From the NCBI RefSeq assembly GCF_037126435.1, contig NZ_CP147020.1, positions 4,787,001 to 4,851,000 of the forward strand: DNA of 64,000 nt, written 5' to 3'. Origin of the DNA: Bernardetia sp. ABR2-2B. Lineage in GTDB: Bacteria > Bacteroidota > Bacteroidia > Cytophagales > Bernardetiaceae. Below the pieces are notes generated by a model. It saw only the letters and a program-made list of their open reading frames with translations, did not search any database and had not been told where the DNA came from. Positions 4,831 to 15,723 of this stretch are shown here, one piece after another; the first letter of the stretch is position 1, and every line of letters starts with the position of its first letter. Made by a program: the position numbers and the translations under genes.

Positions 4831-5745
4831 TTAGAAAATATACCCTAAAGTCAGATTGATTTCTTTAAAATCTTGTGCTGTTTGTCGATAGGAAATAGCT
4901 GTATTTAGCCTTAGTTTTTTGTAATAAATTGATTTATTTAGATTTGCTTCCCACGCCCAGTAGTCTTGCCAATAAAAGGATTTTGCTGAAATATGTAGTT
5001 TTGCAAACGTTACATATTTTGATAAACCTAAACGAATCCCATAGTTATCTGTTTTATTGTTTTCTATTCCTGTTTTAGAAAATATTTGATGACCTATTCC
5101 ATAAGAAAGAGAAGTTTTTATAAATTTCAAATTGCTACTACTTCCTATAAAATAAGTAGTTATTCTATTTTCTGTTTCTGATTTATTGAAAGTAGTTTGT
5201 TGAAAAATATAATACATATATCGCCCTATTGCATCTGTTCCAAACCCTCCATAAAAATCGGAATTACTTTTAAAGTTGGTACTATATCCTGCTTCTAATA
5301 TAAAGTATTTTCTATTCTCCTGTTCCTTATTTGAGTAGAAACCCTTGCTTATCATAATTCCATAAGGATTATAAAAAATCCCACTCCAATAATTTATATC
5401 TAAAGATCCTTCATAAACAGCAATGGTTTTTGTTGTAAGTATGCAATCCATGTCAGAAAATAAAAAAACTTCGCCCTTTATTGCAAGTATTACAGAAGCC
5501 TTCAACTCTAATGGGGTAATATTATGACGTTCAAAAATTAAAATAGTATTTTCGTCTTTAACTTCAATTATAAATTTTCCATCAATATCTGTTACTGTTC
5601 CTTGTAGAGTATCTTTTACTTTAATTATTATTCCTATCACAGGTTCTCCATAATTATCAATTACTCTACCACTCACACTAATCTGCCCAAAAACAGAATA
5701 ACAAATCAATAAAAGAAAGAGCATAAAAAGTATAGATTTTTTCAT
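4831..5745 (-). CDS. Outer-membrane-type protein with CarboxypepD_reg-like domain, paralog A
   Basis: A 304-residue exported protein. The signal peptide is MKKSILFMLFLLLICYSVFG, followed directly by a CarboxypepD_reg-like beta-sandwich (ISVSGRVID ... GTVTDIDGKFIIEV). The remaining ~200 residues alternate in beta-strand fashion and end in LTLGYIF, an aromatic C-terminal strand typical of outer-membrane barrels. The last ~60 residues (SFYWQDYWAWEANLN onward) are almost the same in the two genes upstream, so the three are a tandem family. The function is unknown; a small barrel or surface protein is inferred. Its regulatory domain is the most diverged of the three. Confidence 0.75.
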   Translation of the reverse strand: MKKSILFMLFLLLICYSVFGQISVSGRVIDNYGEPVIGIIIKVKDTLQGTVTDIDGKFIIEVKDENTILIFERHNITPLELKASVILAIKGEVFLFSDMDCILTTKTIAVYEGSLDINYWSGIFYNPYGIMISKGFYSNKEQENRKYFILEAGYSTNFKSNSDFYGGFGTDAIGRYMYYIFQQTTFNKSETENRITTYFIGSSSNLKFIKTSLSYGIGHQIFSKTGIENNKTDNYGIRLGLSKYVTFAKLHISAKSFYWQDYWAWEANLNKSIYYKKLRLNTAISYRQTAQDFKEINLTLGYIF

Positions 5746-5764
5746 AGTTTTTTTGAGGTGTTGA

Positions 5765-6652
5765 TTAAAATATATATCCTAAAGCTAGATTAACTTCTTT
5801 AAAATCTTGTGTGGTTTGGCGATATGAAATGGCTGTATTTAGTCTTAGCTTTCTGTAATAAAACTCTTTATTTAGATTCGCTTCCCACGCCCAGTAGTCT
5901 TGCCAGTAGAATGATTTTACTGAAAGATTTGCTCTTGCAAAATTTATGTATTTTGATAAACCTGCATTTATTCCAAAATTTTTAGTTTGATTATTTTCTA
6001 TTCCTTTTTTAGAGAATGTTTGATGACCTATTCCGTAGAGAAGTCTAGTTTTAATGAACTTAAAATAGCTATCACTTTCTACTAGATGTGTAGTAATTCT
6101 GTTTCCTATTTCTGATTTGTTGAATGTGGTTTGTTGGAATTTATAGTAAATAGTTCTTTTGAGTATTTCTGTTCCTATTACACCGTAGAAATCTGAATTA
6201 TCTTTGAAATTTGTGCTGTATCCTGTATTAATGTGTAAATAATTTATTGCAGGAACATAATGCCAAGATTTACTAACAGAAACGCCATAAGGATTATAAA
6301 AAAAACCACTCCAGTAACTAATTATTAAAGGTGTGTAATTATGATTCCCAATATAATATTCTACTAGCTCACTTGGCTGTAAAGTAACTTCTTTTGTTAT
6401 CTCTGAAACCTTCACTTCTTTTGTAACATAACCTACAAAACGAAAGGTTAGAATATCATTTTTATTTTCTACAGTAATTTCAAAGTTTCCTTCAATATCA
6501 GTTTGTGTACCTCTGTTTGTTCCCTTGATTTGAACGGTTGCTCCAGGTAAAGCACCATCTTCACTTGTAACAATCCCACTCACAGTAATCTGCCCAAAAA
6601 CAGAATAAGAAATCAATAAAAGTAAGAGCATAAAAAGTATAGATTTTTTCAT
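5765..6652 (-). CDS. Outer-membrane-type protein with CarboxypepD_reg-like domain, paralog B
   Basis: A 295-residue homolog of the neighbours, with a nearly identical signal peptide. It carries the most canonical CarboxypepD_reg-like domain of the set (TVSGIVTSEDGALPGATVQI ... GTQTDIEGNFEITV ... FVGYVTKEV). The rest is strand-rich, ends in LALGYIF, and shares SFYWQDYWAWEANLN and SYRQTTQDFKEVNL with both paralogs. Only 19 nt separate it from the next gene, so the three probably form one leftward operon. The function is unknown. Confidence 0.75.
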   Translation of the reverse strand: MKKSILFMLLLLLISYSVFGQITVSGIVTSEDGALPGATVQIKGTNRGTQTDIEGNFEITVENKNDILTFRFVGYVTKEVKVSEITKEVTLQPSELVEYYIGNHNYTPLIISYWSGFFYNPYGVSVSKSWHYVPAINYLHINTGYSTNFKDNSDFYGVIGTEILKRTIYYKFQQTTFNKSEIGNRITTHLVESDSYFKFIKTRLLYGIGHQTFSKKGIENNQTKNFGINAGLSKYINFARANLSVKSFYWQDYWAWEANLNKEFYYRKLRLNTAISYRQTTQDFKEVNLALGYIF

Positions 6653-6670
6653 AGGTTTTTGAGATTTGGA

Positions 6671-7195
6671 TTAAAATATATAGCCTAAAGTCAGATTGAC
6701 TTCCTTAAAGTCTTGTGTGGTTTGGCGATAGGAAATTGCTGTGTTTAGCCTTAGTTTTTTATAGTAAATTGACTTGTTTAGATTTGCTTCCCACGCCCAG
6801 TAATCTTGCCAGTAGAATGATTTGAAATATAAAAGACCTATGTATTTTATTCGTTTTGCAATTCCTATGTTTGCACCCCAGTTTTTTCTTGTGTTATTTT
6901 CTAATCCTTCTTTCTCAAACTGCTGATTTCCTAATCCGTACATAATGCCAAAATATTTGAATCCAGTACTACTTTCTAGAAGATGTGTAGTTATTTTATT
7001 TTCAGTTTCTACCATAATTTCAAAATTCCCATTGATATCTGTCATTGTTCCTGTTTCTGTCCCTTTTATACCAATACTAGTACCAGGTAAACCACCGTCT
7101 TTTTTATCAATTACTCTCCCACTCACAGTCATCTGCCCAAAAACAGAAGTAGAAAAACACAAAAAAAAGAGCATAAAAAGTATAGATTTTTTCAT
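6671..7195 (-). CDS. Outer-membrane-type paralog C with an internal in-frame deletion
   Basis: This 174-residue protein has the same signal peptide and CarboxypepD_reg-like start as its two paralogs and the same C-terminal strands (ends LTLGYIF). The middle ~110 residues are missing: the regulatory domain runs straight from NFEIMVETEN into KITTHLLESS, which in paralog B is found far downstream (ENKN ... NRITTHLVES). The frame is preserved, so a short protein may still be made. The frame could extend 18 codons upstream from 7195, but MKKSILFML at 7195 matches the paralog starts. It is the first gene of the probable operon. Confidence 0.7.
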   Translation of the reverse strand: MKKSILFMLFFLCFSTSVFGQMTVSGRVIDKKDGGLPGTSIGIKGTETGTMTDINGNFEIMVETENKITTHLLESSTGFKYFGIMYGLGNQQFEKEGLENNTRKNWGANIGIAKRIKYIGLLYFKSFYWQDYWAWEANLNKSIYYKKLRLNTAISYRQTTQDFKEVNLTLGYIF

Positions 7196-7377
7196 GGTTT
7201 TTGGTTTATAATTGTCTGACACTTTGAAGTGTCTTGACAATAAATTCATTAAGATTTATTAAGCATTTTCTTAGATTACGTAACTTTTATCTCAAAACGC
7301 TGCAAAATTATTCCTAAAATGGAATTTTTTTATTACTACTTGGTGTTTTTTGGTAACTTTGTTATTACAAACCATTT

Positions 7378-7478: not shown

Positions 7479-8990
7479 ATGAATCCTGAAAAAGACCTTT
7501 TACTCTATAATACACTTACTCGCAAACGAGAAAAGTTTGAACCCATAGATGCGCCATTTGTCGGAATGTACGTCTGTGGTCCTACGGTTTATAATGACGT
7601 GCATTTGGGAAACTGTCGTACATTTACATTTTTCGATGTCGTTTATAGATATTTGAGTTATTTGGGATACAAAGTGAGATATGTCCGAAATATTACCGAT
7701 GTAGGTCATTTGACTGGAGATAGCGATGAAGGCGATGATAAGATTTCCAAACAAGCACGATTAGAAAAAATTGAGCCGATGGAAGTTGTTCAGCGTTATA
7801 CCAATGGCTTTCACGATGTGATGTTGGAGTTGGGAAATATTCCCCCAAGCATCGAACCTACTGCAACAGGACATTTGATAGAACAGATTGAGATGGTAAA
7901 ACAAATTCTTAAAAACGGCTTTGCTTATGAGTCTAATGGTTCTGTTTATTTTGATGTAGTGAAGTATAACGAATCCCACAATTACGGAAAACTCTCTGGT
8001 AGAAATATCGAAGAGCAACTAGAAGGACAAGGAACACGCAAACTAGACGGACAAGACGAAAAGAAAAACAGTGTAGATTTTGCTATTTGGAAAAATGCAG
8101 ACCCTTCACACCTTATGCAATGGAACACAGAGTGGGGCAAAGGTTTTCCTGGGTGGCATTTGGAGTGTTCTGTAATGAGTACAAAATATCTTGGAAATGA
8201 GTTTGATATTCACGGTGGAGGAATGGATTTGCAGTTTCCTCATCACGAATGTGAGATTGCACAAGCCGTAGCCACCACAGGAAAAGAGCCTGTAAAGTAT
8301 TGGTTACATTCGAATATGCTGACCATGAACGGAACAAAGATGTCAAAGTCTTTGGGAAACGTAATTATGCCAGAGGAGCTTTTTACAGGAAATTCAGAAC
8401 TTTTGACAGAAGCCTATTCACCTATGGTTTTTCGCTTTTTTATGTTCCAGACGCATTATCGCAGCACAATGGACATTACAGATGATGCGTTGAAAGCTGC
8501 CAAAAAAGGCTATTTTAAACTAATGAACGGAATCAAAAATGCTAAAAGCCTTGAATATCCTGAAACGGTAGAATTAAATGTTAATGAAAAACATGAAAGT
8601 GATATTCAAAAATCGGTAACTTCTGTTTTTAGAGGAATAAATGATGATTTTAATACAGCCAAATCTATTGCAGCTTTGTTTAATCTTGTCAAGAAAATAA
8701 ATATGCTCCACACTGGACAGCTTGAGTTTTCTCAAATCTCAAAGGAATCTTTTGATAAACTGAAAAGTACATTGATTGACTTTACAGAACAGGTTTTGGG
8801 AATAAAAGAAGAGTTGCCACAAGGTGAAAAGATGCTCAAAGAAATGATAGTTACTTTAGTAGAAATGTATAAAGAAGCTAAAGAAGCTAGAAACTATGAA
8901 AAAGTAGATTATTTGAGAAGCAAAGCAAAAGAAATCGGTATTGTTTTCAAAGATATGAAAGACAAGATTGATTGGGCTTATGATGAGTAG
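7479..8990 (+). CDS. cysS: Cysteinyl-tRNA synthetase
   Basis: This 503-residue class I aminoacyl-tRNA synthetase charges tRNA-Cys. It has the HIGH-type motif in GPTVYNDVHLGN (residue ~40), the zinc-ligand region GWHLECSVMS and HGGGMDLQFPHHECE, and KMSKSLGN near residue 287. The C-terminal helical anticodon-binding domain is present (DALKAAKKGY onward). Length is normal. Inserted segments such as GTRKLDGQDEKKNS before DFAIWK are slightly longer than in E. coli. The gene is followed by a strong terminator. Confidence 0.97.
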   Translation: MNPEKDLLLYNTLTRKREKFEPIDAPFVGMYVCGPTVYNDVHLGNCRTFTFFDVVYRYLSYLGYKVRYVRNITDVGHLTGDSDEGDDKISKQARLEKIEPMEVVQRYTNGFHDVMLELGNIPPSIEPTATGHLIEQIEMVKQILKNGFAYESNGSVYFDVVKYNESHNYGKLSGRNIEEQLEGQGTRKLDGQDEKKNSVDFAIWKNADPSHLMQWNTEWGKGFPGWHLECSVMSTKYLGNEFDIHGGGMDLQFPHHECEIAQAVATTGKEPVKYWLHSNMLTMNGTKMSKSLGNVIMPEELFTGNSELLTEAYSPMVFRFFMFQTHYRSTMDITDDALKAAKKGYFKLMNGIKNAKSLEYPETVELNVNEKHESDIQKSVTSVFRGINDDFNTAKSIAALFNLVKKINMLHTGQLEFSQISKESFDKLKSTLIDFTEQVLGIKEELPQGEKMLKEMIVTLVEMYKEAKEARNYEKVDYLRSKAKEIGIVFKDMKDKIDWAYDE

Positions 8991-9042
8991 AATTTAATCC
9001 TCATTGACGGAAACGTCTCAACGACGGTTTAGAGTCCGAATA

Positions 9043-9080
9043 AAAACGGCTTCAAAATATCAATATTTTGAAGCCGTTTT
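9043..9080 (+). terminator. Intrinsic terminator of cysS
   Basis: AAAACGGCTTCAAAATAT and its exact reverse complement are separated by only two bases and end in a T run. It isolates cysS from the RNA array that follows. Confidence 0.85.
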
Positions 9081-9258
9081 TTATGAAAAATAATAAGTTC
9101 GTAGGTTGAAGACTACAAATACATTTTTTAATTTTATTCGTCATCGATAAAAACCTTTTATAGTAGTCAGGTTTTTCTCTTAAAGTGATTTTTTAGGTTT
9201 TACATCCAAAATGAAACTATTTTTATTTTTTAGATGTAGTGTTTCTATAAATTAAAAA

Positions 9259-9367
9259 GGGGCAGTAGCCAAGAGGATAGGCAATAGAAAACGTTATCAT
9301 TATCGCTTCATCGGTCAAATAAAGTTTACTACAATTATTTACACAGGTTCGAATCCTGTCTGCCCCA
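9259..9367 (+). ncRNA. tRNA-like gene T1 with inserted core
   Basis: Acceptor GGGGCAG/CTGCCCC, D-arm GCC/GGC and T-arm ACAGG-TTCGAAT-CCTGT are complete, with discriminator A. Instead of a normal 17-nt anticodon arm there are about 59 nt holding the core in permuted order: block 2 (ending CATTATC) comes first, then GGTCAAAT ... TTTACTAC. The pairing AAAC/GTTT is the weakest of the set. I could not find a deletion that restores an anticodon arm with U33, so T1 may be degenerate or non-decoding. Confidence 0.75.
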
Positions 9368-9414
9368 CAAGTTTTGTGATAAAAAGTTATTACAATTCAA
9401 AAATAAAAAATACT

Positions 9415-9502
9415 AGGTCAATTTAGTCATACTTCTCTATTGGTTGAGGTTTCCCACATGTGGGGAGCTTAGGTTCGAGTCCTGTCTGATTAGAAATTAC
9501 CT
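9415..9502 (+). ncRNA. Core element S1 (loop contains a T-arm-like segment)
   Basis: Block 1 begins AGGTCAATT and ends TACTTCT; block 2 ends GAAATTACCT. The variable arms TAGTCA (9424-9429) and TGATTA (9487-9492) pair over six bases with one G-U. The enclosed ~50-nt loop is the longest of the S elements. It includes a CCCAC-AT-GTGGG hairpin and TTAGGTTCGAGTCCTG, which resembles a tRNA T-arm. A T-rich tract follows. Confidence 0.75.
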
Positions 9503-9520
9503 GTATTTTTTGACTGTATG

Positions 9521-9654
9521 GGGACAGTAGCTCAGTCTGGTAGAGCAACGTATATTTTTATGATTATCGTTGTATTCTTTTTCAGTCGGTCAAATGAAAA
9601 TTACTTCTAAGCTTTGGGTGCCGTGGGTCGCAGGTTCGAATCCTGCCTGTCCCC
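9521..9654 (+). ncRNA. tRNA-Pro(UGG)-like gene T2 interrupted by a 60-nt insert
   Basis: Acceptor is GGGACAG/CTGTCCC, D-stem GCTC/GAGC, T-arm GCAGG-TTCGAAT-CCTGC. Bases 9551-9610 split the 5' strand of the anticodon stem between tRNA positions 29 and 30. Removing them joins ACG to GC, giving stem ACGGC/GCCGT with loop TTTGGGT (anticodon UGG) and a standard 74-nt tRNA. The insert begins TATA and carries block 2 (ATTTTT then ATGATTATC), a 19-nt loop, and block 1 (GGTCAAAT, GAAAAT, TACTTCT). ATTTTT and GAAAAT pair fully (last pair U-G). The discriminator is C, which is unusual for Pro, and a G at -1 could pair with it. Confidence 0.85.
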
Positions 9655-9688
9655 CTTTTTCTAAAAAAATAAGAAATTCAAAATATAA

Positions 9689-9745
9689 AGGTCAAATACG
9701 GCTTACTTCTAAATTCTTTGGTTGAAAACAGTCGTGTGATTACCT
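9689..9745 (+). ncRNA. Core element S2
   Basis: AGGT (9689) pairs with ACCT (9742-9745); CGGCT (9699-9703) pairs with AGTCG (9730-9734), one G-U. The conserved TACTTCT follows the first arm and TGTGATT the second. The 19-nt loop can form a short stem around TTTGGTT, whose middle bases place UGG where an anticodon would sit, the same anticodon as T2 just upstream. A T6 run follows directly. Confidence 0.75.
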
Positions 9746-9761
9746 TTTTTATTAAGAATAA

Positions 9762-9920
9762 CAAGTGGTAACAAATTGGTAGGCATTGGGATTTTAGTTT
9801 GAAAATTATCTTACAAAAAAATTAAACTACCATATTTACTTTTTAGGTCAATTCAAATTTACTACAAAACCCTTATTATAGTACACCCAAATGTCGTAGG
9901 TTCGAATCCTACCCACTTGG
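9762..9920 (+). ncRNA. tRNA-like gene T3 with inserted core
   Basis: Acceptor CAAGTGG/CCACTTG, T-arm GTAGG-TTCGAAT-CCTAC and anticodon stem TTGGG (9786-9790)/CCCAA (9886-9890) are all perfect. The D-arm has GGTA but no canonical stem. Between the anticodon-stem halves lie 95 nt, starting ATTTTAG. If most of that is removed, a loop ATTTTA plus one base would give UUU (Lys), but the exact boundaries are ambiguous. The core pairs as AGTTTG (9796-9801) with CAAATT (9854-9859), and ATC with GGT. Confidence 0.7.
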
Positions 9921-9951
9921 CAAGAAAAGCAGATTTTAAAAATAAAAAAAT

Positions 9952-10023
9952 AGGTCAATCAAAACTTACTTCTTTTCGCTTAAAAGTCGGATTGCAATGC
10001 AATTCATAGTTTTGAGATTACCT
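9952..10023 (+). ncRNA. Core element S3
   Basis: AGGT/ACCT closes the element and AAAACT (9961-9966) pairs perfectly with AGTTTT (10008-10013). TACTTCT and GAGATT are conserved in place. The 34-nt loop contains ATTGC-AAT-GCAAT, a perfect 5-bp hairpin. A T7 run follows directly. Confidence 0.75.
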
Positions 10024-10041
10024 TTTTTTATAAAAAATATC

Positions 10042-10155
10042 TAAGTGGTAGCTCAAATGGTAGAGCACTAGCATTTAATGTATAGATTACCTAAAGGTCA
10101 ATATAGATTTACTTCTCGGCTCTAGGGGTTACAGGTTCGAATCCTGTCCACTTAG
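10042..10155 (+). ncRNA. tRNA-like gene T4 with a 41-nt insert; apparent anticodon UUA
   Basis: Acceptor TAAGTGG/CCACTTA, D-stem GCTC/GAGC, T-arm ACAGG-TTCGAAT-CCTGT. Removing 10081-10121 (starts TATA, like the T2 insert) joins G39 to CTAG and yields stem CTAGC/GCTAG with loop ATTTAAT and a 73-nt cloverleaf. Positions 34-36 would be UUA, which would read UAA stop codons. Here the insert sits on the 3' side of the loop, not the 5' strand as in T2. The core pairing AATGT/AGATT has one mismatch, and ACCT/AGGT is closed by only two bases. Confidence 0.75.
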
Positions 10156-10165
10156 CAAAATATTA

Positions 10166-10210
10166 CTCATTCTTTAGAGTGAGAAAAATATAACGAATAC
10201 TTTAGTATTC
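10166..10210 (+). repeat. Two small hairpins in the T4-S4 spacer
   Basis: ACTC/GAGT around ATTCTTTA and GAATAC-TTTA-GTATTC (10195-10210) form two adjacent hairpins. They make this spacer 77 nt long, whereas the other T-to-S spacers are 31-47 nt. They lack a T run and no core block is present. Confidence 0.5.
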
Positions 10211-10232
10211 AGAAAGAAATAGGTAGAAATAA

Positions 10233-10303
10233 AGGTCAATCAAGACTTACTTCTCCGTAAATAACAACGGTGCTATAAACGCACATTAGTCTTGAGATTA
10301 TCT
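10233..10303 (+). ncRNA. Core element S4
   Basis: AAGACT (10242-10247) pairs perfectly with AGTCTT (10288-10293); AGGT pairs with ATCT (one G-U). TACTTCT and GAGATT are in register. The loop holds two adjoining hairpins, CCGT/ACGG and GTGC-TATAAAC-GCAC, the second with a 7-nt loop like an anticodon arm but without U33. A T5 run follows. Confidence 0.75.
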
Positions 10304-10337
10304 TTTTATTATTTACTGTCTTTCAAAAATAAATTTC

Positions 10338-10412
10338 AGGTCAAATAGGACTTACTTCGTTTGCCGACAGTAGGCAAATCGCTCTTAACGATTACCAGTT
10401 CTATGATTACCT
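10338..10412 (+). ncRNA. Core element S5 (solitary; loop carries an anticodon-arm mimic)
   Basis: AGGACT (10347-10352) pairs with AGTTCT (10397-10402), one G-U pair; AGGT pairs with ACCT. The conserved heptamer reads TACTTCG here. The loop forms TTTGCC-GACAGTA-GGCAAA and then AATCG-CTCTTAA-CGATT (10377-10393). The second hairpin has exactly the 5-bp stem and 7-nt loop of an anticodon arm, with U33 and CUU (Lys) at 34-36. No tRNA-like gene precedes it. It ends 27 nt before the downstream ATG, so it may also influence translation of that gene. Confidence 0.75.
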
Positions 10413-10439
10413 ATTTTTAAATTAAAACAATTATAATTT

Positions 10440-12836
10440 ATGGAAACTATTTTCCCAACAACTACAAAATTCTCTAATCTTTCTGCTGTTGCTGTTCGTA
10501 ACCAAGCCATTTATGTAATGACTGAAATGGCAGAAATTAATGAACAGATTGATACAAAAATTGGAGAAAACAAAAAGCTAAGACAAACAACTTCTGTTTT
10601 GGTGGCTAATTTAGCAAAGCTAGGTTTTGGAGTAGATGAGCAGCTTTTGACTGCGCTAAATAATCTGCCTACCAATTATCAGCTAATGATTGCCGATAAG
10701 TTCAAAACCATAATGGGAGTAAATAAAAACTGGACACCACTTGTAAAAGGTTGGGATGTGCCTACTGGCGAGGATATTACTGACCACTTGATGACTTGGT
10801 TTGTCAATGTATTTATTCCAAAAGGAAATAAAAAAAGAGGTGTAGAGTTAGCTTGTGGACACACAATTCCACCAAATACATTTCCTTTAGAACGCTATAA
10901 TGGCTGTCCGTTTTGTGGAACTCCTTTTGAGTTTGGAGAACTAGAAGATGAGAATTTCGGACAAGGAAGCAAACTCAAAATGCTTTCTCTTTGGACTGAC
11001 AAAGAAGCAAAACAGTATTTTGAAGATTTGTTGGCTTCCAAAACGGCTCTTGATGCTACTCAAATTGATAGCTTGAAAAAAATGATTCAAGCCTACAAAG
11101 AGGAAGGTTTACCAAGTGTAGAAATCAAAATGAAGGAAACGCTAATGGTTGTTATTTCTAATTTGGTAGAATTGGGTAAGGCTGAAAAAGCACAAGTTTA
11201 TTTCAAGTCGCCTGTTGATGTGATGCGTTATTTGTGGTACAAACATACTGGTTTTTTACAGCTTGTAAAGCCAAAAGTAATTGTAGAACGCAAAGCCAAA
11301 AATAACAAACATATTGCAAGCGTAATTTTAAAAGAGTTAGACCAAAGTGCAGCAGCTAGATTAGCAGCAAAAACTGAATTGAAATTAAAATATTCAAGAA
11401 AAGAATGTTTTATGGTGGCCTCTTGGCTCAATAATTTGGAAATGAATGCTGATATAATGTGTGAGGCAATGCACCCAAAACGTGAAATGTGGGTTCGTTT
11501 TATTCGTGCTTTGCGTTTGGCAGAGTATAGCAAAAAAACAGGTTTTGAGAAATTAAAAACCGTTTTGGATAAATTTTATAATGAAGATTATAGAGTTTGG
11601 CAAGGAGAAGTTGATAAATATCGTTTGCGTACAGACGTAAATAAAACGATGCAACTCTTAAAGCAACGTCCTGGACTTTTTGCTAGGTCATTATTTGCCA
11701 ATATGCTTTGGTTTGGAAAAGAGGATGTTTTGGAGGCTTTTTCTGAAATAATTGATAAAGTTCCTGCTCGTCTTGTTTTTACTTTGAATACCTATGCAGA
11801 TTCTTATTTCACAAAAGGTGGAAATCGTGCTGTTAAGCCACTTGGAGGAACAAATAAGCATATTCCTAAAAATCAACTTCTTGCTCTTTATGATGAAGAA
11901 GGCTTGAAAGCTATGAAAGAAGGAATTGAAGAACTATGTATTTTGGCAATGAGAAAGCGTTTTGAAGCTCAAAAAATCAAAGATAAAAATGAGAACAAAA
12001 CAATTTTTATTGACCCAATGCTTTTCAAAGTTCCTGTTTCGATAGGCGATAGAAGCGAAACCGTACAGGATATGCCTTCTGCACTTATGGGGACTCGTTT
12101 TGAGATTGAAGGAGATACGGTTCGTTTGTTTATGCAATGGGGCGAAGGCTTACCTGCACAACATTTGGATATGGATTTGAGCTGTCATGTGGCTTACAAA
12201 CCAAAGGTAGATAATTCTAAAAGAGAATATTCTAATTATGGTACTGCTTATGATATTTGTTCATACAGCAATTTGGTTACAGATGGTTGTAAGCATAGTG
12301 GCGATATTATGAGTATTCCAGATAAAATTGGAACAGCCGAATATATTGATATTGATGTAAAAGAATTGCGCCAAAAGGGAGCAAGGTATGTTACATTTAC
12401 TTGCAATGCCTACTCAAATGGAGAAATTACTCCTAATTTGGTAGTTGGTTGGATGAATAGTAAACACAAAATGACAATTTCAGAAAAAACAGGAGTGGCG
12501 TATGACCCTTCTTGTGTTCAACATCAAGTCCGAATCCAAAGAAATCTCACAAAAGGTCTTGTTTTTGGAGTTTTGGATATTGATGCAAATGAAATTGTTT
12601 GGTTAGAACTCTCATTCCACGGACAAGTAGTAGGACAGCTTGATATAAGAGGAGTAGAAACCCTTTTAGGAAAGCTAGATGCAAAACTTAGCATCGGAAA
12701 TCTATTGCTTTTGAAAGCCGAAGCCCAAGATTTAGAGGTTTTGGAAACAAATGATGAAGAAAATCCTGCTGATGAAGTCTATTCGAAAGAATGGGCAATG
12801 AATACGGCAGCCGTTACCCAATTATTGGTGGATTAA
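10440..12836 (+). CDS. MXAN_6230/SCO0854-like protein with RING-type zinc finger, helical repeats and TerD-like C-terminus
   Basis: This 798-residue cytosolic protein has no signal peptide or membrane segment. Near residues 139-159 is a compact zinc-finger pattern, C139-x-H141 ... C156-x2-C159 (ELACGHTIPPN, NGCPFCGTPF), similar to a bacterial RING/rubredoxin-like knuckle. Residues ~240-500 are helical repeats, including RPGLFARSLFANMLWFGKE and the F-T-K-G segment characteristic of the family I recognise as MXAN_6230/SCO0854. Residues ~600-740 resemble TerD (LDMDLSCHVAY, HSGDIM, EYIDIDVKEL, GVLDID). TerD proteins occur in stress, tellurite and phage or colicin resistance loci. The gene starts 27 nt after the last element of the RNA array on the same strand, so a working partnership with those RNAs is inferred, perhaps as binder or scaffold. 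A biochemical activity is not evident; no RNA ligase or nuclease motif is visible. Confidence 0.75.
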   Translation: METIFPTTTKFSNLSAVAVRNQAIYVMTEMAEINEQIDTKIGENKKLRQTTSVLVANLAKLGFGVDEQLLTALNNLPTNYQLMIADKFKTIMGVNKNWTPLVKGWDVPTGEDITDHLMTWFVNVFIPKGNKKRGVELACGHTIPPNTFPLERYNGCPFCGTPFEFGELEDENFGQGSKLKMLSLWTDKEAKQYFEDLLASKTALDATQIDSLKKMIQAYKEEGLPSVEIKMKETLMVVISNLVELGKAEKAQVYFKSPVDVMRYLWYKHTGFLQLVKPKVIVERKAKNNKHIASVILKELDQSAAARLAAKTELKLKYSRKECFMVASWLNNLEMNADIMCEAMHPKREMWVRFIRALRLAEYSKKTGFEKLKTVLDKFYNEDYRVWQGEVDKYRLRTDVNKTMQLLKQRPGLFARSLFANMLWFGKEDVLEAFSEIIDKVPARLVFTLNTYADSYFTKGGNRAVKPLGGTNKHIPKNQLLALYDEEGLKAMKEGIEELCILAMRKRFEAQKIKDKNENKTIFIDPMLFKVPVSIGDRSETVQDMPSALMGTRFEIEGDTVRLFMQWGEGLPAQHLDMDLSCHVAYKPKVDNSKREYSNYGTAYDICSYSNLVTDGCKHSGDIMSIPDKIGTAEYIDIDVKELRQKGARYVTFTCNAYSNGEITPNLVVGWMNSKHKMTISEKTGVAYDPSCVQHQVRIQRNLTKGLVFGVLDIDANEIVWLELSFHGQVVGQLDIRGVETLLGKLDAKLSIGNLLLLKAEAQDLEVLETNDEENPADEVYSKEWAMNTAAVTQLLVD

Positions 12837-12850
12837 TTTTATACAATTTA

Positions 12851-12880
12851 ACCGACACTTTTCGAAGTGTCGGTTTTTTT
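12851..12880 (+). terminator. Intrinsic terminator of the array/protein unit
   Basis: ACCGACACTT-TTCG-AAGTGTCGGT is a perfect 10-bp stem with a stable UUCG-type tetraloop, followed by a T run. Confidence 0.9.
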
Positions 12881-12903
12881 GGGTGCATAACAAATTGCTA
12901 CAT

Positions 12904-12947
12904 GATGTTGTTGGTATCGCTCACGCTAAAACACCAACAACGGCATT
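12904..12947. repeat. Dispersed hairpin repeat (GTTGTTGGT...ACCAACAAC), copy 1
   Basis: GTTGTTGGT (12907-12915) and ACCAACAAC (12933-12941) flank TCGCTCACGCTAAAAC. Closely similar copies are at 32947-32983 and 44592-44637, and shared flanking words (AACAAATT, GGCATT) show these are one family. Confidence 0.75.
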
Positions 12948-12949
12948 AG

Positions 12950-13345
12950 ATTTTTATTCAAATTCTACGCCGAACGGGGGAAACCATAAAGCAAATACAA
13001 AATATGTTGTTGGGCTTAGTTTGTAACTAAGACCTATCAGTTATATAAATCTTCAGATTTATGTAGTCAAGTAAATACAAAAATACCTACTTAACTTGCA
13101 AGTCTAAGACTTGATGAACTGATAGGTCGTAGTCGCAGACTACGCCCAACACTTGTTTTTTTATTTTTTAGTCTTTGGAAGACTCAGCCGAACGGGGGAC
13201 AACGCCCAACATTCATTTTTTTTGTTTGGCTATTGGAACACTACGACGAACGGAGGTAAATCGTAGTCGCAGACAACGCTTAACAAGTTTATTTTGCAAC
13301 ACTACGAGCAACTGGGGGGGCATTCATAATTCTAACCACTTATTT
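12950..13345. repeat. Non-coding stretch built of dispersed repeats
   Basis: No gene is seen here. It contains at least four variants of CTACGnCGAACGGGGG (about 12966, 13186, 13246, 13304) and several CGTAGTCGCAGACnACGC blocks. A ~90-nt block at 13060-13150 contains GCAAGTCTAAGACTTG. That block recurs in opposite orientation around the insertion sequence at 14243-14285/15733-15760. Confidence 0.6.
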
Positions 13346-14285: not shown

Positions 14286-15723
14286 CTTATCCTGTCCCAT
14301 AAACTTTTCAATTTTGGCTATTGTTTTGTATTGATTTTATTTGTTTACTATTCTTACCTTCATTTTATGTTATATCAACCTTTGGAACATTGGAGCGAAC
14401 GAGAATTTATGGGTTGTGGTGTTGAAGACTTACGAGAAGCGAAGAGTATTTCGAAGATGGCAGATAAATTATTAGCTACTCCAGAAAACTCTTTCAGTAG
14501 TAGCGTAGGTAATAGCCTACGAAAAGCAGCTTGGCGTATTTTTTCAAAGGAAGAAGTAGATATTAGCTACGGACATTATCGTCAATCTTCTCTTCGTTGT
14601 TCTTCTGAATCTATGGTTTTGGTTCACCAGGATACAACAGATTTGAATTTTGGAGGTCATTTGGCTAGTGAAGGTTTAGGTGACTTAGGAGGTAGTACTG
14701 GCAAGCCTATTCTAGGTCTTTGTGTTCATAGTGCTTTAGTTACTACGGAAGCAGGTATTCCTTTGGGTTTGATTTCACAAAAGATATGGGCGCCTACAGT
14801 GGGCAGTAAAGAAAAAAAAGTAATTCCTCACCTTCCAATAGAAGAAAAAGAAAGTTATCGTTGGTTAGAGGCTCTACAAGATATTAGCCATCGTTTAAAA
14901 GATGTTTCTAAGGTAATTGTAGTTTCTGATAGAGAGAGTGATTTTTATGAATATATTGATGCTACTCGTGGTAGAAATGTGGAGTTGTTATTTAGAGTGC
15001 ATCATTTACGTCGTAGAGTATATGCAAATGGAGAGAAGATAGCTCTAGGGCAAGTTAGTTTTTCATCATTATCAGAGATAGATGTTTTTCTACCTAAGAG
15101 CAAAACTAGAGAAGCTAGAAGAGCTCGTCTTACAATAAGCTGGGGAGATATTATTTGCCCACCTTCGCAAAGGAAAAAGGGATCAGAACATCCTTTATCT
15201 CTTATTATAGCTAAAGAAATGCACCCTCCCAAAGATCAAGAGGCAGTAGAATGGTATCTACTAACCACTCAAAAAATAGTTACCCTTCAACAGGCACTTC
15301 TTTGTATAGAACACTACAAAAAACGTTGGACTATTGAGCGTTGGCATTATGTGCTTAAACAGGGTTTACGAGTAGAAAAACTACAGTTTGATACATTTAC
15401 TTCACTATCTAATGCTATAAGCTTACTCTCCATTGTAGCTTGGCAACTTTATTTGCTCAAAAAACTGGCAGAAGACTATGAAGATATTTCTGCTGATCAA
15501 GTATTGACAAAGATACAACTAGAGGTGTTAGGAAAACAAAGTCAGAAAAAAATACGCTACCTTCAAGAGGCTTTGATACGCATCGCTGTGTTAGGTGGAT
15601 TTACACCATCTAAAAAACAACCTCTACCTGGCGAAATGACAATATGGAAAGGGTATAAGATGCTTAGTTTAATAGTTCAAGGCTATAAACTGGCTAACCC
15701 AAAAAAATATGGGACAGGATAAG
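14286..15723 (+). mobile_element. Complete IS4-family (IS50/Tn5-like) insertion sequence
   Basis: The 1438-bp element has 16-bp perfect terminal inverted repeats, CTTATCCTGTCCCATA at 14286-14301 and its complement at 15708-15723. It is flanked by a 9-bp direct repeat GTCTTAGAC (14277-14285 and 15724-15732), the target-duplication size usual for IS50-type elements. One intact transposase fills it, and the transposase stop codon lies inside the right terminal repeat. The perfect ends and intact gene imply a recent insertion. The target site is itself palindromic, within a dispersed repeat. Confidence 0.92.
14367..15722 (+). CDS. IS4-family transposase
   Basis: This 451-residue DDE transposase has the N-terminal Tn5-like DNA-binding region (LEHWSEREFMGCGVEDLREA), catalytic Asp in VLVHQDTTDLNF, a second Asp in VVSDRESDF, and the signature YKKRWTIERWHYVLK, which matches Y-x2-R-x3-E-x6-K and holds the catalytic Glu. 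A TTG 36 nt upstream could extend it, but the ATG at 14367 gives the expected start. It appears fully functional. Confidence 0.93.
   Translation: MLYQPLEHWSEREFMGCGVEDLREAKSISKMADKLLATPENSFSSSVGNSLRKAAWRIFSKEEVDISYGHYRQSSLRCSSESMVLVHQDTTDLNFGGHLASEGLGDLGGSTGKPILGLCVHSALVTTEAGIPLGLISQKIWAPTVGSKEKKVIPHLPIEEKESYRWLEALQDISHRLKDVSKVIVVSDRESDFYEYIDATRGRNVELLFRVHHLRRRVYANGEKIALGQVSFSSLSEIDVFLPKSKTREARRARLTISWGDIICPPSQRKKGSEHPLSLIIAKEMHPPKDQEAVEWYLLTTQKIVTLQQALLCIEHYKKRWTIERWHYVLKQGLRVEKLQFDTFTSLSNAISLLSIVAWQLYLLKKLAEDYEDISADQVLTKIQLEVLGKQSQKKIRYLQEALIRIAVLGGFTPSKKQPLPGEMTIWKGYKMLSLIVQGYKLANPKKYGTG

Follow-up and report, generated by a model that had tools for sequence, protein, structure and literature searches.

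Why should nine copies of one motif, four of them lodged inside tRNA-like genes, stand directly in front of a single protein gene? The question is raised by a 64,000-nucleotide (nt) stretch of Bernardetia sp. ABR2-2B, positions 4787001-4851000 of a 5.38-Mb genome (contig NZ_CP147020.1; hereafter the window, with its own numbering used below), in which an array of putative RNA elements is found between a cysteinyl-tRNA synthetase (CysRS)-like gene (7479-8990) and an open reading frame (ORF) of 798 amino acids (10440-12836). A first-pass annotation of this DNA had taken the array and the protein to be one functional unit and had hinted at RNA repair. That the RNAs and the protein form one functional unit is well supported by the comparisons reported here, and the array probably provides the RNA parts of an RNA-repair ribonucleoprotein.

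A paired core in two circular permutations

The motif count of the first-pass annotation was reproduced by a pattern search, in which GGTCAA-N8-TACT[T/A]C is found nine times and always on the + strand (9313, 9416, 9588, 9690, 9846, 9953, 10096, 10234 and 10339), four times in tRNA-like genes (T units) and five times free-standing (S units). The order is T-S-T-S-T-S-T-S-S, with the core copies spanning 9290-10412. The whole genome contains 10 matches, nine in the array and one elsewhere, while the pattern written backwards, used as a control, has one. The "two-block motif" described earlier is thus real, but it proved to be only half of a paired core, AGGUCAA-N8-UACUUC ... N8'-GAUUACCU, in which N8 and N8' are the strands of a covarying 8-bp helix and the partner, N8'-GAUUACC, lies downstream in S units and upstream in T units. 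The S units are free-standing hairpins with the layout GGUCAA-N8-UACUUC-loop-N8'-GAUUACC, and the T units read tRNA 5' part-N8'-GAUUACC-loop-GGUCAA-N8-UACUUC-tRNA 3' part; S and T are one core in two circular permutations. In the five S units of the window, N8 pairs at 8 of 8 positions with an N8' 20-51 nt downstream, followed by [G/A]ATTA[C/T]C, and in the four T units 7-8 of 8 pairs are formed with a strand upstream of N8. The core comprises a closing helix (AGGU/ACCU), an internal loop, the 8-bp helix and then UACUUC. The N8 sequence is mostly free except for its last two pairs, and the core looks like two recognition loops kept 8 bp apart. A wider assignment, in which partners were chosen by pairing and near-duplicate loci may be included, divided 141 copies from 41 sources into 98 S units, 39 T units and 4 left unassigned.

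The helix was also evaluated with no pairing condition imposed. The 79 core copies followed by.ATTAYC form on average 7.47 of 8 N8 pairs vs 4.21 after shuffling of the partners, where the maximum of 1000 shuffles is 4.67 pairs; 57 of the 79 are perfectly paired, and 43 distinct N8 sequences are represented. This 79-copy comparison, not the alignment that follows, is the unconditioned pairing test. In alignment A2, 91.4% of cells are paired vs 67.2% after shuffling, a percentage biased upward because its 52 S units were selected from 64 by two conditions, a loop no longer than 40 nt and no fewer than 7 of 8 pairs. Both sides vary in 12 of the 17 pairs of A2, and its covariation score is 0.621 vs 0.161 shuffled and 0.090-0.178 in slid controls. 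Some results tell against this reading: four of the 79 pair at only 3-4 of 8 positions; a downstream.ATTAYC within 75 nt is absent for 39 of 118 core copies, many of which are T units; and the constancy of GGUCAA, UACU.C and AUUA.C in A2 is partly by construction, because copies and partners were found with GGTCAA-N8-TACT[T/A]C and.ATTA[C/T]C. The proof of the structure rests on the free N8 helix, the closing pairs outside it and the loci chosen by protein.

No family of Rfam 15 describes the core, and tRNA alone reaches its cut-off in the array. Self-splicing group I and group II introns are absent from the 20 Rfam matches at E <= 5, in agreement with the earlier remark that nothing here resembles them. 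A permuted transfer-messenger RNA was also considered and rejected, as the match is weak (18.4 bits, cut-off 47, E 0.92) and is taken to reflect T-arm resemblance.

Association of the RNA with the protein across genomes

The first-pass annotation had proposed to build a covariance model of the core and to look for the protein beside its matches. A set of 395 genomes of the phylum, the host genome included, was searched both with such a model (R1, from S units) and for the protein. The protein is encoded in 11 genomes and an R1 match at E <= 0.01 is found in 14, which include all 11 protein genomes (best E 1.1e-12 to 2.4e-9). In 11 of 11 the matches are just upstream of the gene and on the same strand, while the 384 genomes without the protein contain three single marginal matches (E 0.001-0.006), roughly as many as chance would give. 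A second collection of 42 homolog loci, mostly from Bacteroidota, was picked by protein alone, and the exact core is present in 34 of them. In these 34 loci, every core copy but one lies within 1.6 kb upstream of the start and none is on the opposite strand; L046 has an extra copy 2.25 kb past the gene start. Homologs were also found in 14 of 59 genomes, the host included, and cores accompany 11 of 14 homolog loci in relatives, the window's own locus excluded. The outcome that the first-pass annotation had named as refuting, homologs that never neighbour the core, did not occur, and its claim of one unit is supported by these results.

Several facts reduce the weight of this association. The 11 protein genomes span two genera with 10 in one, and therefore are not independent, and the training sequences of R1 came in part from the window and from loci perhaps of the same genomes. 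Three of the loci in relatives (L027, L028 and L029) have no core. The exact core is also absent in 8 of the 42 protein-picked loci, four of which have merely 2-112 nt of upstream sequence; among the others, a near copy is present in L054 and L055 and only a loose one in L058, and L066 has none.

Features of the window

The elements are listed in Table 1. As noted in the first-pass annotation, the array ends 27 nt before the protein gene (last position 10412, ATG at 10440) and a terminator-like palindrome follows the gene; it is the strongest of three such sequences in 9000-13000, where shuffled sequences yield 2.6 of any strength. Promoter-like sites around the array (16 vs 13.6 in shuffles) are not in excess.

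Table 1. Elements of the array, the adjoining protein gene and the terminator-like palindrome, in window coordinates.
Feature	Position	Strand	Description
T1 tRNA-like gene	9259-9367	+	7-bp acceptor 7/7, T arm; Rfam tRNA 44.7 bits
T1 core	9290-9332	+	Replaces or interrupts the anticodon arm; N8'-CATTATC-loop-GGTCAA-N8-TACTAC; N8 7/8 paired
S1	9415-9502	+	8/8 N8 pairs; 51-nt loop, by eye with the look of a class-II tRNA elbow (variable arm and T arm GGTTCGAGTCC), without anticodon arm
T2 tRNA-like gene	9521-9654	+	Core 9554-9607; Rfam tRNA 46.9 bits; 8/8 N8 pairs; removal of the insert gives the arm ACGGC-TTTGGGT-GCCGT (Pro UGG; final step by eye)
S2	9689-9745	+	8/8 N8 pairs; 20-nt loop, anticodon-arm-like TTC-TTTGGTT-GAA
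T3 tRNA-like gene	9762-9921	+	Core 9796-9865; under Rfam cut-off; acceptor 7/7; 8/8 N8 pairs; detected by ARAGORN only with introns allowed
S3	9952-10023	+	8/8 N8 pairs; 35-nt loop
T4 tRNA-like gene	10042-10155	+	Core 10077-10115, N8'-GATTACC-TAAA-GGTCAA-N8-TACTTC; Rfam tRNA 50.8 bits; acceptor 7/7; N8 7/8 paired
S4	10233-10303	+	8/8 N8 pairs; 34-nt loop; R1 E 4.8e-9 (R1 built partly from S4)
S5	10338-10412	+	8/8 N8 pairs; 38-nt loop with two hairpins by eye, the second ATCG-CTCTTAA-CGAT; R1 E 1.6e-8 (S5 not in R1)
798-aa protein gene	10440-12836	+	N-terminal domain, one-zinc RING-like domain, helical part (186-515), TerD-like part (516-735), acidic tail
Intrinsic-terminator-like palindrome	12850-12875	+	11 pairs and T run, 3' of the 798-aa gene; consensus match only

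Other features of the window include three tandem paralogs at 4831-7249 (- strand), whose N-terminal ends are alike and whose C-terminal ends are alike, and a long imperfect inverted repeat at 12999-13161, matched weakly on both strands by plant and animal microRNA models, which is probably a repeat element.

tRNA parts carried by the T and S units

Three of the four T units of the window reach the Rfam tRNA cut-off, with the insert at the anticodon arm. The core breaks this arm in all four, and plain ARAGORN detects none of them. Among 35 candidates, 33 T units have 7 of 7 acceptor pairs plus T arms, with the core located within the anticodon stem or loop. Their ends are mostly GCAG, ACAG or GTGG, and CCA after N73 is encoded in none of the 33. 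Of the parts expected in a functional tRNA gene, the T units possess the acceptor stem and the D and T arms and lack an intact anticodon arm. When the core is removed, at least 10 of the 33 give a perfect 5+7+5 anticodon arm by eye (Pro, Tyr, His, Gln, Asp and Lys). The host genome has 65 tRNA genes by ARAGORN, one of unclear anticodon and three for Pro-UGG; thus, the T units are not required for decoding.

Anticodon-like hairpins are also found in the loops of S units. In 48 of 69 S loops there is a hairpin whose loop has 7 nt with U in second place, vs 17.0 in dinucleotide shuffles (maximum 25, n = 200), and with a purine at place six in addition the count is 39 vs 10.1 (maximum 18). Hairpin loops of 5 or 8 nt are not enriched and those of 6 nt hardly so (16 of 200 shuffles reach the count). 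The likeness to anticodon arms is weakened on several sides. Loops of 4 and 9 nt are likewise enriched (reached by 0 of 200 shuffles); 21 of the 69 S loops have no anticodon-like hairpin, including that of window S3, where one was sought; and some of the 7-nt loops counted are T loops in S units of elbow-like form, window S1 among them. Some anticodon-like loops carry A34 (AGG, ATT), which is seldom used in bacterial tRNAs, and therefore these may be mere U-turn hairpins, a looser mimic.

Two composite units were noticed by eye. In L021 (about 1071 on the reverse complement) and L041 (about 5702), the closing loop of a T unit encloses an entire S element with a T-arm loop.

The RING/TerD protein

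The protein had been described as a TerD-like zinc-finger protein, and this description fits what was found. C139, H141, C156 and C159 are invariant across 39 homologs, and Prok-RING_4 matches the window protein at E 0.003, which is below its cut-off, and weakly all 39 homologs. The AlphaFold2 model (pLDDT, the predicted local distance difference test, 81.6; pTM, the predicted template modelling score, 0.83), from which the domain bounds in Table 1 were drawn by eye, has a helical middle. Its C-terminal part is best matched in Foldseek by the TerD proteins 3ibz (E 8.8e-4, probability 1.00) and 2qz7. Net charges are +15 for the helical part, -7 for the TerD part and -8 for the tail. NF041916 of NCBIfam (MXAN_6230/SCO0854 RING) matches the window protein over its full length (model positions 19-721 of 842; E 1.1e-40), at 139.6 bits vs a cut-off of 600, and also matches all 39 homologs (best E 7.9e-48). 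A profile search of PDB sequences had no match at E <= 1, and PADLOC gave only weak matches, in 1-2 of the 39 homologs.

RNA-repair genes in the neighbourhood

Neighbours were counted at the 25 loci whose flanks reach 3 kb or more on the upstream side and 2 kb or more downstream. RtcB is encoded on the same strand in seven (L043, L046, L049, L059, L062, L063 and L067) and a divergent WYL/WCX regulator in nine (L038, L044, L046, L049, L059, L062, L063, L067 and L070), so that 10 of 25 have one or the other. Pfam confirms all seven RtcB proteins and eight of the nine regulators; that of L063 rests on its BLAST cluster. RlaP, which was not sought systematically, was seen in L053, in L054 and twice in L063. 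Among distant homologs, the Variovorax gene is near rtcR with three small genes between; that of phage Weasels2 has a tRNA cluster and RtcB 3 kb on; that of phage RcXuper is accompanied by a tRNA cluster and a nucleotidyl transferase; and an RNA ligase gene lies 3 kb from the Vibrio gene. With RtcB, RlaP and WYL regulators among the neighbours, the hint at RNA repair has gained substance. RlaP is predicted to restore nucleotides lost upon anticodon-loop cleavage (PMC7824862, in part). A link to repair is less evident elsewhere: the BLAST clusters of 15 of the 25 loci contain neither RtcB nor WYL, the genes adjoining the window array encode CysRS and a transposase, with no repair gene beside it, and RtcB of the host genome is about 350 kb away.

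ORFs resembling SPFH/Band-7 were recognized by eye from sequence near two homolog loci (L046, 10429-11337; L037, 4122-5228).

Reach beyond close relatives

Plasmid and phage records contain homologs with 22-56% identity. Exact cores are found in Hymenobacter (L072) and Segatella (L073), and the architecture is kept beside homologs of 23-26% identity in Rhodococcus phage Weasels2, Niallia and Vibrio and, more weakly, Deinococcus. In a 13.9-kb stretch of Weasels2, four of the six + strand TACTTC sites are within 400 nt directly past the gene, with 7, 8, 8 and 8 of 8 N8 pairs, a closing helix, [A/G]GG...AA before and GCUC[A/G]CC after; the other two are partnerless. Both TTCCTTCT sites of Niallia and both of Vibrio lie past the gene with 8 of 8 pairs formed, and three ATCCTTCT sites before the Deinococcus gene have 7, 8 and 7. 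The chance that a best match in random sequence (65% GC, 57 positions) reaches at least 7 pairs is 0.30 and that it reaches 8 is 0.026, values that are exceeded for the distant homologs because up to 140 nt were scanned there. Two results caution against reading too much into these sites: two of the five minus-strand TACTTC sites of Weasels2 reach 7 pairs by chance, and so does a fourth Deinococcus site, unrelated and inside another gene, which makes 7 pairs alone weak. Copies in Variovorax and Streptomyces contain similar words (UUCCUUCU) with no clean 8-bp partner and were not counted as members. No credible element was recognized in LpeD and RcXuper, where a single 8-pair site each, on the minus strand, is unrelated in place. 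Viral contigs gave three pattern matches, with no relative confirmed.

Two further observations concern single records. An S-type loop of Weasels2 (L077, 8091-8197) contains, by eye, a circularly permuted tRNA in the order anticodon 3' half, T arm and acceptor, then acceptor 5' strand and D arm. In a metagenome-assembled genome of Spirochaetia (L052, 815-3067), the homolog is present as two ORFs, as if interrupted in the assembly by a stop or frameshift.

Possible function

For the probable RNA-repair ribonucleoprotein, we propose a version in which its tRNA parts would act as bait for anticodon nucleases; this proposal, suggested by the sequences, seems to us to stand just short of an even chance. 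The core, with its fixed 8-bp spacing and two conserved loops, would be the handle held by the positively charged helical domain of the protein, and the displayed anticodon arms would be baits for tRNA-cleaving nucleases that absorb or report the attack, while RtcB-type ligases and RlaP would mend the real tRNAs. Cut baits or spared tRNAs may then feed into repair, with RtcB, RlaP and the WYL regulators in charge of the response, and the T units may also let RNase P and RNase Z free the intervening S units. Carriage by a phage fits a counter-defence role. A scaffold or modification-gating role fits equally well, which tells against the bait version; so does the fact that the array precedes the gene in Bacteroidota, as it also would if it were a leader.

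The perfect anticodon arms obtained from T units raise the question of whether the core is an intron-like arm, with T units being interrupted tRNAs whose insert is removed and whose halves are joined by RtcB, and S units the permuted form that gives circles. The element would then be a protein-spliced bacterial tRNA intron, perhaps of a reserve tRNA hidden from anticodon nucleases. The two circular permutations, RtcB in 7 of 25 neighbourhoods and the permuted tRNA seen by eye in one Weasels2 loop agree with this explanation, which we nevertheless consider unlikely: the ends of the insert differ in length and place, many units yield no clean arm, the anticodon loop of L033 is by eye on the 5' side of the insert, the genome has no need of these tRNAs and no group I or II intron is matched in Rfam. 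We find it harder still to believe in a cis-regulatory 5' leader, through which binding of the protein or a tRNA would control the downstream gene (autoregulation or a tRNA sensor). Its position on the same strand, with the last S unit 27 nt before the gene, is what would be expected in Bacteroidota; however, copies are downstream of the gene in Niallia, Vibrio and Weasels2 and past its start in L046, and the tRNA acceptor stems, being intact, suggest that the units are processed into RNAs of their own.

Constant internal loops in permuted topologies are usual for small ribozymes, and a core with two topologies and two constant internal loops at a fixed 8-bp spacing might itself be catalytic, self-cleaving or self-joining. 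In the genomes tested, the core strictly accompanies a single protein family, which argues instead for a protein-bound element, and no Rfam ribozyme family matches, so that we regard catalysis as very unlikely. Scarcely better placed is gating of the Y RNA type, in which the RNA would act as a cofactor and direct an RNase or a modifying enzyme, much as Rsr and polynucleotide phosphorylase are directed by Y RNA, and the tRNA parts would merely resemble substrates. The same overall plan, a stem plus a tRNA-like part in RNA-repair loci, speaks for it, and YrlA has been suggested as a possible competitive nuclease inhibitor (PMC7790460, in part); what speaks against it is that the units carry a variety of tRNA parts and not a single tRNA-like domain. 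Because of this plan, Ro60 and its Y RNAs were the system considered first, and membership was rejected: TROVE is not among the 12 Pfam families matching any of the 39 homologs at E <= 0.1, no Ro60 structure is among the best 50 of 1008 Foldseek matches, and YrlA of Rfam scores 25.3 bits vs a cut-off of 69. Finally, the repeats beside tRNA-like sequences, and the Tn5-like DDE transposase gene 1.5 kb past the RING/TerD gene (14331-15722, + strand; Pfam DDE_Tnp_1, E 1.4e-5), could point to decaying tRNA genes into which a mobile element has inserted a repeat. This explanation is refuted by the covariation of N8 and by the co-occurrence of the core with the protein, and the acceptor stems are intact across genera.

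Relation to known systems and implications

A 2016 survey of RNA-repair systems by Burroughs and Aravind reportedly describes a "novel tRNA-like molecule" that occurs with an SPFH/Band-7 scaffold, RNA ligases and a nucleotidyltransferase. That system resembles the present one in having a scaffold protein and a tRNA-like RNA in RNA repair, whereas the scaffold family differs; the survey may already cover this RNA-protein pair. In searches of the open-licence literature, no description of the pair appeared among the papers listed. The window protein shares the RING-like N-terminal and TerD-like C-terminal domains of the MXAN_6230/SCO0854 RING family, but scores below its cut-off, and the family name mentions no RNA partner. 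Rsr-Y RNA-RtcBA operons have been described, and like the present RNAs, the Y RNA or YrlA of Rsr (Ro60) is a small RNA with a stem (protein-binding in YrlA) and a tRNA-like part, encoded beside its protein; its loci are RNA-repair loci with RtcB and an RNA-sensing regulator (PMC7790460, in part). Unlike Rsr, the window protein is of RING/helical/TerD rather than TROVE type, and each array has many RNAs with different tRNA parts on a core that differs from YrlA and occurs in two permutations. Jumbo-phage RNA repair likewise combines tRNAs, RtcB and RlaP, and the phage homologs lie among tRNA genes; the part of PMC7824862 used here makes no mention of the present pair. Y RNAs, and reportedly the SPFH-associated tRNA-like RNA, are already examples of the general kind, in which a scaffold protein and a tRNA-like RNA take part in RNA repair; there is a real chance that this system is categorically new. 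Tentatively, and as somewhat less than probable, we suggest a new class of ribonucleoproteins over several bacterial phyla and phages, in which one protein family would hold modular RNAs carrying tRNA parts on an 8-bp handle in two circular permutations, and these would be anticodon-nuclease decoys that absorb or sense attacks and pass the damage on to RtcB and RlaP.

If these proposals are true, the locus would represent an undescribed bacterial RNA-protein partnership with a clear anatomy, strong covariation and a tight genomic link to its protein, and a modular, many-RNA counterpart of Ro60-Y RNA in RNA repair. A TerD/RING family named to date by locus tags only would also gain a function, and how cells and phages cope with anticodon nucleases would become directly testable.

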